From assembly GCA_030653935.1 (NCBI GenBank), contig JAURYL010000113.1, positions 1 to 64,000 on the forward strand: 64,000 bases of DNA, in the 5' to 3' direction. The notes beneath the pieces were generated by a model that saw only the letters and a list, made by a program, of their open reading frames with translations, was not told the origin of the DNA and ran no database searches. Each line of letters opens with the position of its first letter. The stretch's first letter is position 1. A program made the translations under genes and the position numbers. Below are positions 1-58,619 of the stretch, one piece after another. This stretch comes from Pseudomonadota bacterium (GTDB lineage: Bacteria; Pseudomonadota; Gammaproteobacteria; Burkholderiales; Thiobacillaceae).

Positions 1-1462
1 ACGCGACCGGGTTGTCAATCCATGCCGCCCCGTTCCCCGCGCTCGCGGGGATGAACCGGGTGTCCCGATCCTGATCAAAGAGCACCCCGACCGTTCCCCG
101 CGCTCGCGGGGATGAACCGCAGATGATGAGCGCCACATCTGCCCATTGCAGCCCGTTCCCCGCGCTCGCGGGGATGAACCGACCATCCATCCGCCTTCCA
201 CCTTTGTGACCTTCCGTTCCCCGCGCTCGCGGGGATGAACCGTCTACAGCAGCGACCCGCGCGACCTGAGCAACCCGTTCCCCGCGCTCGCGGGGATGAA
301 CCGTGCCAACGATTGCCACTGACGCCAGCGGCAATCCGTTCCCCGCGCTCGCGGGGATGAACCGCGCGGATGGATACGCTCAATACCTATATTGAGCCGT
401 TCCCCGCGCTCGCGGGGATGAACCGGCCGGCCGTTAGTTCGCGGATGCGGACGTTGGCCGTTCCCCGCGCTCGCGGGGATGAACCGATAGAGCGCGACAA
501 CACAAGGGCCGCGCGGGACCGTTCCCCGCGCTCGCGGGGATGAACCGACCTGGAACGGCTGGTTAAAAGCCCGGAAACCCCGTTCCCCGCGCTCGCGGGG
601 ATGAACCGGCTGAGTTTGAAGGTTGCGTTCATGATCTTCTCCGTTCCCCGCGCTCGCGGGGATGAACCGACGCCATCCTACGCGCCTATTGTGCAAGCAA
701 ACCGTTCCCCGCGCTCGCGGGGATGAACCGGCATTATTCATGGCACCCGCCCCCGCAAATAACCGTTCCCCGCGCTCGCGGGGATGAACCGTGGCCACCC
801 TGGAAGCGAAACAGTTGGAGGCCCCGTTCCCCGCGCTCGCGGGGATGAACCGTACGTCAGCGACATCAACCGTGTGCCGTTCACCCGTTCCCCGCGCTCG
901 CGGGGATGAACCGCCGCCGAAATCGGTTTCATGGTCGCTGTGTTACCGTTCCCCGCGCTCGCGGGGATGAACCTATTACAGCCATCGTGAAGATTTATTG
1001 CAGGTTCCGTTCCCCGCGCTCGCGGGGATGAACCGCCTGACGAACGCTTACATGGACCAAGTACGTCCCGTTCCCCGCGCTCGCGGGGATGAACCGCCTA
1101 CCGCGATTGGTGTCGAGTTCCCGACGTACCGTTCCCCGCGCTCGCGGGGATGAACCGCACGTTTCGACGCTGGTCATGCAAGCGAGGCCCCGTTCCCCGC
1201 GCTCGCGGGGATGAACCGTAATCCTTCGCGTCGATGGTCAGGCAGATGTCCCGTTCCCCGCGCTCGCGGGGATGAACCGACCATCACAATCCAGGAAACC
1301 CCTGGACGCCGCCGTTCCCCGCGCTCGCGGGGATGAACCGAAACTCGACAAGCTCCAAGCCAGCGGCGCGGACCGTTCCCCGCGCTCGCGGGGATGAACC
1401 GCATGAGCTCCATGACTTTGCCGACCGATCTCCCCGTTCCCCGCGCTCGCGGGGATGAACCG
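1..1462 (+). CRISPR. Type I-E-like CRISPR array: 24 intact 29-nt repeats CCGTTCCCCGCGCTCGCGGGGATGAACCG, 32-33 nt spacers; continues beyond the left window edge
   Basis: Repeat starts at 30, 91, 153, 214, 275, 336, 397, 458, 519, 580, 641, 702, 763, 824, 885, 946, 1007, 1068, 1129, 1190, 1251, 1312, 1373, 1434. Resembles the E. coli type I-E repeat GAGTTCCCCGCGCCAGCGGGGATAAACCG in the same orientation, giving a 5' handle ATGAACCG, so transcription is predicted left to right with the leader outside the window. No cas genes in the window. Confidence 0.98.
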
Positions 1463-1811
1463 GGCAGGCGAGACGCCTGCGCTACATACAGCCAACCATT
1501 CTCCGCGCTGGGGGCGATTCAAGCTGATGTGGAAACCCTGGTTGGCATGGCGGGGTGATCGTGAAATATCCGCCGTGGGAGCGGGCTTGCCCGCGATTGG
1601 CGACGCTTTGTATGCATCACCGTGGAATATCGCGGTGGGGGCGGGTTTGAAATCCGCCCCTACGGTGGGTCTCGTCATGCGGGGCAGCCGCCCTTGGCGT
1701 ACGGCTGCATTGGTTTGAATCGCATCCTGCGAACGCGGGGATGAACCGGGCAGGCGAGACGCCTGCTGCGCTACGTACAGCCAAGCGTTCTCCACGCGCG
1801 CGGGATGTCCT
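1463..1811 (+). CRISPR. Degenerate CRISPR trailer: decayed repeats at about 1496-1510, 1728-1748 and 1785-1810, split by an interspersed repeat
   Basis: ccattctccgcgct (1496), gcgaacgcggggatgaaccg (to 1748) and gcgttctccacgcgcgcgggatgtcc (1785) align to the array repeat; near-identical ggcaggcgagacgcctgc..gctac.tacagccaa units follow at 1463-1495 and 1749-1784. Confidence 0.7.
1510..1727. repeat. Interspersed repeat copy A with terminal inverted repeats (g.gcgattcaa ... ttgaatcgca.cc)
   Basis: Shares tggaaacc..ggttggcatggcg.ggt.atcgtgaaa..cc and ccgtgggagcgggcttgcccgcgattggc.acgctttgtatgcatc.ccgtggaatatcgcggt.ggggcgggtttgaaa.ccgcccctacg with 58069-58412. Confidence 0.85.
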
Positions 1812-56085: not shown

Positions 56086-58044
56086 ATGCCCAGTACCCTC
56101 GAACTCACCCTGATTCTGCTTGCCAGCGGCGTTTTCGCCGTCGCCTGGCTGAAAGCGCTCGGCTTGCCGGCGCTGGTCGGGTATGTGCTGATCGGCGCCG
56201 CCATGGCGCCTTTCCTGCCACGCTTTAGCCACGATTCCCCGGCCAGCCACCTGGCGGAGTTCGGCGTGGTGTTCCTGATGTTCTCGATCGGCCTGGAGTT
56301 CTCGCTCTCACGTTTGAAGACCATGCGCCAGGCTGTTTTCGGCCTTGGCGGCATGCAGGTCGCCCTCACCATGTTCATCATCATGGCCCTGGGCTTGTTA
56401 TTTGGTCTGCCCTGGGAGCAGGGGCTGGCCATCGGCGGCGTGCTCGCCATGTCGTCCACCGCCATCGTCAGCAAATTGCTGTCAGAGCGGGACGAACTGG
56501 ATAGCGAACACGGTCGCCTCATCCTCGGCGTGCTGCTGTTCCAGGATATCGCGGTGGCGCCGCTGATCATTTTCGTGCCGGCGCTGGCGCAGAGCGCCGG
56601 CCTCGGTGAGGCCTTGCTCTACGCCAGCCTGAAGGCGGCCCTGGTGCTGGTCGTGATCCTGGTGATCGGGCAACGCGTGATGCGGCCTTGGTTCCAGTGG
56701 ATTTCCCAGGCCAAGTCCGCCGAGCTGTTCATGCTCAACGTGCTGCTGATCACCCTGGGCCTGGCCTATGTCACCGACCAGGCGGGGCTGTCCCTGGCGC
56801 TGGGCGCCTTCCTCGCCGGCGTCCTGATCGCCGAAACCGAATACCGCTACCAGGTGGAAGCCGACATCCGGCCCTTCCGTGATGTGCTCATGGGGCTGTT
56901 CTTCGTGTCCATCGGGCTGATGCTCGATCTCGGCGTGGTGGCCGGGCACTGGGGTGAGGTGCTCGGCATCATGTTGGCCCTGGTCCTGGGGAAATTTCTG
57001 GTGGTGGCGCTGTTGACCGGCCTCTTCACACGTTCCTGGCCGGTCGTGCTGCGGGTCGGACTCGGCCTCGCGCAGGCCGGTGAATTCGGTTTCGTGCTGC
57101 TGGCGCTGACCCTCGGCAGTGGCCTCATCGACGCCGAATCGCATCAGACCCTGTTGGCCGCGATGGTGCTCTCCATGTTGACCGCGCCGCTGATCGTGAT
57201 GCTCGGCAATATCCTGGCGAAGCGGCTGGAGGGAGGCGCCTGGGTGGAACAGGCGCGCGATGTGCATGAAATCGCCACCCGCGCCTTCGGTATCCAGAAA
57301 CACGTCATCGTCTGCGGCTATGGGCGCAGTGGGCAGAGCCTGGCGCGCCTGCTCGAATCGGAAAAAGTCCCCTTCATCGCCCTCGACGACGATCCGCGCC
57401 GGGTGCACGCGGCGGCCCAGGCTGGCGACCGCGTTGTTTTTGGCGACGCCTGCCGCGCCGAAGTGCTGATGGCCGCCGGTGTGCACCGCGCTCGCGCCGT
57501 GGTGATCAGCTTTGCCCACTTGCCCTCCGCCCTCAAGCTGATTGCCGCCGTCCAGCAATTGAAACCCGACGCTCCGGTGATCGTGCGCACCGTCGACGAT
57601 AGCGACCTCGACGCCCTGCGCGCGGCGGGCGCCGCCGAAGTGGTGCCGGAAGTCATCGAAGGCGCGCTGATGCTGGGTTCGCAAACCCTGCTCATGGCCG
57701 GTGTGCCGCTGGCGCGCGTACTCAAACGCATCCGCCAGGTCCGTGAAGCGCGCTATGGCGCCATGCGAGGCTATTTCCGCGGCCTCACCGACGATCTCGA
57801 CGATGAAGCCGGTGGCGAACGCCTGGCTTCCATCCTGGTCGACAGCCGCCTCGGCCAGTTGGGAAAATCGCCGCTGGACCTCGATCTGGCCAGCCTTGGC
57901 GCAACCTTCGTCAACCTCCGTCGGCGCGGCGCCCAGGGTACCGAATATGGTCCGGAAACCAGTCTGGAAGCTGGTGACATCCTCATCCTGCGGGGCGTGC
58001 CGGAAGCACTGGCGGCGGCGGAAATGCGTCTGGCGGAAGCGTAG
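56086..58044 (+). CDS. Monovalent cation:proton antiporter-2 (Kef/YbaL-type) with TrkA-N domain
   Basis: Na+/H+ exchanger helices (GYVLIGAAMAPFLPRF, FLMFSIGLEFSLSRLK) and TrkA-N (HVIVCGYGRSGQSLARLLESEKVPFIALDDDP). Confidence 0.93.
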   Translation: MPSTLELTLILLASGVFAVAWLKALGLPALVGYVLIGAAMAPFLPRFSHDSPASHLAEFGVVFLMFSIGLEFSLSRLKTMRQAVFGLGGMQVALTMFIIMALGLLFGLPWEQGLAIGGVLAMSSTAIVSKLLSERDELDSEHGRLILGVLLFQDIAVAPLIIFVPALAQSAGLGEALLYASLKAALVLVVILVIGQRVMRPWFQWISQAKSAELFMLNVLLITLGLAYVTDQAGLSLALGAFLAGVLIAETEYRYQVEADIRPFRDVLMGLFFVSIGLMLDLGVVAGHWGEVLGIMLALVLGKFLVVALLTGLFTRSWPVVLRVGLGLAQAGEFGFVLLALTLGSGLIDAESHQTLLAAMVLSMLTAPLIVMLGNILAKRLEGGAWVEQARDVHEIATRAFGIQKHVIVCGYGRSGQSLARLLESEKVPFIALDDDPRRVHAAAQAGDRVVFGDACRAEVLMAAGVHRARAVVISFAHLPSALKLIAAVQQLKPDAPVIVRTVDDSDLDALRAAGAAEVVPEVIEGALMLGSQTLLMAGVPLARVLKRIRQVREARYGAMRGYFRGLTDDLDDEAGGERLASILVDSRLGQLGKSPLDLDLASLGATFVNLRRRGAQGTEYGPETSLEAGDILILRGVPEALAAAEMRLAEA

Positions 58045-58068
58045 CAGTCAAGTCCCGCCTCTTTATGG

Positions 58069-58412
58069 GGTGCGATTCAAACTGCTGTGGAAACCAGGGT
58101 TGGCATGGCGAGGTAAGGAACGGGTACGAAATAACTTGCACATTCTGGCTGCACTGGCGGGCGCGCGTGCAGCGTTGCCGGTCGCTTGCAGGGAATGGCC
58201 ATGCGGCGCGACCGGCGCCTTGCATCGCATCCCGCCGGCACACCCATAATTGCACAAGTTATTTCGCACCCGTTCCTAATCGTGAAACACCCGCCGTGGG
58301 AGCGGGCTTGCCCGCGATTGGCAACGCTTTGTATGCATCGCCGTGGAATATCGCGGTAGGGGCGGGTTTGAAACCCGCCCCTACGCCGGGTCACCTCAAT
58401 TTGAATCGCACC
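58069..58412. repeat. Interspersed repeat copy B (ggtgcgattcaaa ... tttgaatcgcacc), interrupted by the 58117-58276 element
   Basis: Terminal inverted repeats and long identity with 1510-1727. Confidence 0.87.
58117..58276. mobile_element. 160-bp foldback MITE-like element with TAA target-site duplication
   Basis: Ends ggaacgggtacgaaataacttg / caagttatttcgcacccgttcc; both halves pair along most of their length; flanking TAA at 58114-58116 and 58277-58279. Confidence 0.85.
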
Positions 58413-58450
58413 CGGTACATGGTCGGCCACGGGATGCCTGGGGAAAAAGG

Positions 58451-58619
58451 CTAGCCCGGATATTTCATGAATTCGCGTGATGGTCGCGCAGTCCATTGTT
58501 TGTACGGGGGATTTTGCGAAGGAGCGGCGTAGTGATTCATACGCCCGACTGAGCAAGGTTTCCTGTGCGGACAAGGGGCCAGCGAGGGCGCGCGAGGATT
58601 CATGAAATATCCGGGCTAG
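58451..58619. mobile_element. 169-bp MITE-like element with ctagcccggatatttcatgaat terminal inverted repeats
   Basis: ctagcccggatatttcatgaat ... attcatgaaatatccgggctag: perfect 21-22 bp ends; no transposase inside. Confidence 0.85.

Follow-up and report, generated by a model that had tools for sequence, protein, structure and literature searches.

A foldback MITE with one core and several types of end, probably moved by an ISAzo13-family transposase

The 64-kb stretch of DNA analysed here (the window) carries a 160-bp foldback element without coding capacity, a MITE that was probably mobilised in trans by an ISAzo13-family transposase; we put the probability of this reading at roughly 80%. 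The element has precise boundaries and a 3-bp target duplication, occurs in multiple copies, is spread across its genus, and matches ISAzo13 elements in its ends and in its target. It is from these sequence comparisons that we infer the action of an ISAzo13 transposase on the MITE. The window lies on contig C131 of a 3.8-Mb draft genome of 135 contigs (G000).

The element sits in a repeat of about 220 bp, present in the window as two copies, A and B (Table 1). In copy B, ggcatggcgaggTAA is followed by the element (GGAACGGGTACGAAATAACTTG...CAAGTTATTTCGCACCCGTTCC) and then by TAAtcgtgaaac, and at the same point copy A reads ggcatggcggggTGAtcgtgaaat. Once the element is removed together with one TAA, 156 of 178 positions (88%) agree between the copies in an alignment that runs straight across the junction, the sole internal gap being of 3 bases near the right end. 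An earlier note on this DNA had placed the foldback exactly where copy A is uninterrupted, and the sequence is as it stated. The TAA duplication proposed there stands in so far as TAA flanks the element on both sides; the corresponding triplet of copy A is TGA, so the reference site is one base off the duplicated triplet. The outer 22 bp of the element are inverted at 21 positions; all other 160-mers in the window stay below 18 of 22. The end motif, with up to three mismatches allowed, occurs in the window only at the two ends of the element and was absent from all of 100 shuffles. Copy B is flanked by an Na+/H+ exchanger-TrkA gene, which ends at 58044, and an MFS transporter gene, whose ORF starts at 58565, and the insertion disrupts the host repeat only.

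Table 1. Positions in the window of the element, its parts and the two copies of its host repeat
Feature	Position	Strand	Remarks
160-bp foldback MITE (insert of copy B)	58117..58276	+	inverted ends 21/22; nine other same-end places in genome
Left terminal inverted repeat GGAACGGGTACGAAATAACTTG	58117..58138	+	outer variable part plus AATAACTTG box
Right terminal inverted repeat GGAACGGGTGCGAAATAACTTG	58255..58276	-	as read on the minus strand
Core hairpin	58139..58254	+	common to copies with other end types
Left TAA of the 3-bp target duplication	58114..58116	+	
Right TAA of the 3-bp target duplication	58277..58279	+	
Host repeat, copy B	58069..58412	+	split by the MITE
Host repeat, copy A	1510..1727	+	unsplit; paralogous empty site
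TGA at the target-triplet position	1556..1558	+	in empty copy A

The host repeat may itself be a second small mobile element. Taken as 1506-1731 and 58055-58426, it has imperfect inverted ends of 24-35 nt (GGGTGCGATTCAAACTG...), and only the two copies were seen. A CRISPR-like array (repeat GTTCCCCGCGCTCGCGGGGATGAACCG; window positions 1350-1500) precedes copy A. About 45 bp before copy A, comprising the end of a repeat unit and gcaggcgagacgcctgcgctac..acagccaa, recur just after it (1734-1790), which places copy A between long direct repeats.

A search of the whole genome with the element found ten places with its outer ends, this one included; two of them have an extra internal insert and one lacks the right end. 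The boundaries given in the earlier note (ggaacgggt.../...acccgttcc) are kept in the other genomic copies with these ends, and a check of the other copies turned up neither inconsistent boundaries nor a lack of target duplication. More than 20 further places match the core only (element positions 14-147). Their outer 13 bp or so are unlike the query, yet the left and right ends are mostly still inverted repeats of each other. Of 23 genomes of the genus, 14 have members of the family, and two more carriers appear to belong to a different family within the order. Where both ends could be parsed (96 copies), the two match each other at 11-16 of their 16 outer bases. Other families of the order also have elements with the same outer ends (e.g. 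GGGCTCGTTAATGAATAA); these are either bare palindromes, 43-53 bp long, or elements of 80, 160 and 266 bp. No match to the element was found on plasmids, where the ends gave short chance matches only; among viral contigs, GGGSCTGTYCATGAATAAC was absent and GGGCTCGTTAATGAATAA was present in two.

The copies vary in their internal structure. Six bare palindromes of 43-53 bp, from several families of the order and nearly all with TWA flanks, consist of two end repeats back to back. Twelve 266-bp relatives hold two different hairpins within the same end repeats, and both orders of the hairpins occur. In nine copies one site of the core holds an additional insert, about 54 or 78 bp long. In the window's own genome, seven copies, often near contig ends, switch at AACTT to CAGACTTCCTGATCCC followed by unrelated repeat-rich DNA; the 21-bp AACTTCAGACTTCCTGATCCC is also found away from the MITE (L296, position 137), and the sequence at the switch is perhaps another site-specific element.

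The flanks of the 96 parsed copies define the target. The triplet pairs are TAA/TAA in 18 copies and TTA/TTA in 18; other identical pairs are AAA (4), TTG (2), and TAT, ATA and TGA (1 each). Once duplicates are removed 88 copies remain, of which 45 show an exact duplication of 3 bp, usually TAA or TTA (17.7 copies on average and 31 at most in shuffles); repeats of 2 bp and 4 bp are not in excess in this set. Together with the shared boundaries, these duplications support the view of the earlier note that the insertion arose by transposition of a small non-autonomous element. The bases outside the duplication suggest a palindromic target preference, GC-TWA-GC. The middle base differs in 16 of the 53 copies with T.A on both sides, indicating that many insertions are old or reshuffled.

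The GGGCTCGTTAATGAATAA-type elements of other families have TWA flanks nearly throughout and none is long enough for a transposase gene; ISAzo13 elements (PF07592) were therefore examined as a source of the enzyme. This family makes 3-bp duplications and has the eukaryotic Zator as a relative (PMC10045372). One such element, L265, is 1325 bp long with ends TAA|GGGCCTGTTGATCAATAAC.../TAA. Another, L284, comes from a genome of the same genus (G014), is 1308 bp long with ends TAA|GGATCCGTTAATCAATA.../TAA, and has an intact transposase gene of 407 aa. The gene lies on contig C23 of G014, on the minus strand at 1634-2857 of L297. A weight matrix built from 158 distinct MITE ends, without the target columns, was slid along ISAzo13 loci. 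It ranked both true ends first and second at five loci, including that of the same genus (L284, L285, L288, L294, L295), and first and third at two (L265, L293), and all the loci so ranked are flanked by TAA or TTA. At L289 the ends also ranked first and second, with low scores, and the fit was poor at five other loci (L286, L290, L266, L291, L292). Control IS loci gave no paired end matches. L295 is a natural 550-bp internal-deletion derivative of an ISAzo13 element that fuses N- and C-terminal parts of the transposase; its ends, GGAACCGCGCAAAAATAACCTGGACAA and GGAGACGCGCAGAAATAACTTGGACAA, terminate in AATAACCTGGACAA / AATAACTTGGACAA, and its inner AATAACTTGGACAA is identical in many MITE right ends.

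A transposase bounded by exactly GGAACGGGTRCGAAATAACTTG, of the kind that the earlier note suggested looking for, was not found in the window's genome. The PF07592 gene was likewise undetected in this genome, a draft assembly in which copies may be collapsed, and within the genus it was found in G014 only. No ISAzo13 element was found with exactly any of six MITE end types; some 13 of 17 bases are shared between the G014 element and the T4 type GGGCTCGTTAATGAATAA. Under a strict end pattern, the genomes of the genus showed no paired ends 0.6-3 kb apart that might mark an autonomous copy. Taking the ends and the targets together, the ISAzo13 family is the likely partner of the MITE. A literature search found no report of a MITE for this family.

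The hairpin of the element is strong. Compared with shuffles, the 160-bp element folds with z = -6.6 as DNA and -8.5 as RNA, and a 266-bp relative with z = -15.5 as RNA. Alifold on the full alignment gave a partial structure only, so base pairs were counted on the consensus fold. Across 83 aligned copies, changes on both sides occur at 21 of 39 core pairs, in 102 cells (16-20 in slid controls and at most 37 in shuffles that take no account of relatedness among the copies). This points either to a role of the hairpin in movement or stability or to correction of its arms against each other. A search of the elements against Rfam, with E values up to 1 allowed, found no match. Outside the element, positions 176-265 of L008 match RF02837 (anti-hemB) on the minus strand, above the gathering score.

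The fold bears on one of the other explanations, namely that the element is a structured regulatory or REP-like sequence, maintained because selection acts on its fold, as RNA or DNA, and spread by recombination rather than by a cut-and-insert transposase. The very strong folding and the paired core changes would be expected of such a sequence, but its boundaries are precise, the paralogous site is unoccupied, and 3-bp duplications stand at unrelated sites. These features call for an integration mechanism and, with the lack of an Rfam match, make this explanation very improbable; the fold may possibly have an additional role alongside transposition. It is hardly credible that a precise deletion from copy A, and not an insertion into copy B, accounts for the difference between them. 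A single unoccupied copy was observed, and its junction reads TGA instead of TAA; however, the 160-bp sequence recurs, identically bounded, at about nine unrelated genome sites with 3-bp duplications.

A MITE may instead have been moved by another insertion-sequence family that duplicates 3 bp, such as a subgroup of the IS5 type. Some IS5 subgroups make 3-bp TNA duplications, and an exact ISAzo13 partner was not found among the elements searched. But PF13340 is present in none of 23 genomes of the genus, and the PF01609 elements of the window's genome (G000) carry other ends and, unlike the ISAzo13 ends, give no paired matches with the MITE-end matrix. An IS5-type partner, for which these two models were searched, was accordingly rejected, and we regard a partner from another such family as rather unlikely. 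An integron attC site was also considered and rejected by eye, the MITE ends not fitting the attC core-site consensus.

Under the preferred reading, movement by an ISAzo13 transposase, the enzyme would recognise the terminal inverted repeats, each made up of a conserved AATAACTTG box and, outside it, a variable stretch of GG plus about 11 bp, and would cut at the GG. The element would insert into TWA, preferably as GC-TWA-GC, duplicating 3 bp; at 58117 it would have entered a TAA within the pre-existing repeat. The ISAzo13 enzyme has presumably been lost from the window's genome or is unassembled there.

The same target may account for the turnover of ends. At least six outer end types occur on one core, and each copy's own two ends match despite the differing types. 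The cores of the present element (L001) and of L121 and L122 are 93.7% identical, and only 4 of 12 outer bases are shared, against 3 of 12 by chance. On a core tree built from few columns and poorly resolved, the end types are clustered without being single (13 changes; minimum 5, shuffled mean 43). Two chimeras are instructive. L300 has a T4 right end set inside the TTA of a right end of type T3; L301 has a T2 left end set inside the TAA of a left end of type T5. Nearly every end repeat contains AATAA, the element's own target, so insertion into the end of a sister element and recombination between cores would account for both chimeras, and their sequences suggest self-insertion followed by core recombination. 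By this route, elements would insert in the TAA or TTA of one another's end repeats and the nested elements would then recombine via their shared cores, two such insertion-recombination events giving a core new ends. Tentatively, and at somewhat less than even odds, we extend this to an ISAzo13/Zator-type MITE superfamily in which the structured core persists and the transposase-binding ends are swapped as modules, nested self-insertion and core recombination re-equipping old elements for a new transposase. Modular exchange would be open to these elements because each end repeat holds their own TAA target.

Among known systems, ISAzo13 (PF07592) elements share with the MITE the outer GG and the AATAA box in the end repeats, the TWA target and the 3-bp duplication (PMC10045372). 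They differ in being about 1.3 kb long and coding for a transposase, and no ISAzo13 element found matches the outer 12 bp of the MITE exactly. The sizes form a graded series, from the 1.3-kb insertion sequence through its 550-bp derivative and the 266- and 160-bp MITEs to the bare palindromes of 43-53 bp. RUP of Streptococcus pneumoniae, a 107-bp MITE of IS630-Spn1, is similarly short, with ends matching those of its insertion sequence and a target duplication (PMC2229807), but it targets TA, whereas the present MITE duplicates 3 bp and combines one core with several types of end. Correia/NEMIS and ERIC are dispersed elements of 100-200 bp that have end repeats and whose transcripts are strongly paired (PMC2229807); their termini are 5'-TA-3', and those of the MITE are GG, with TWA targets. 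REP/BIME elements (RAYT-associated) are likewise dispersed palindromes of bacterial genomes. REPs measure 20-40 bp and bear GTAG or CGTC tags (PMC3733652); the MITE lacks tags of this kind and has a 3-bp duplication. A MITE moved by the transposase of an insertion sequence is thus already known, and what is new is the probable link to ISAzo13 and a constant core with changing ends. The latter is the reverse of the usual case and, if true, would offer non-autonomous elements a concrete way to persist once their transposase has been lost.
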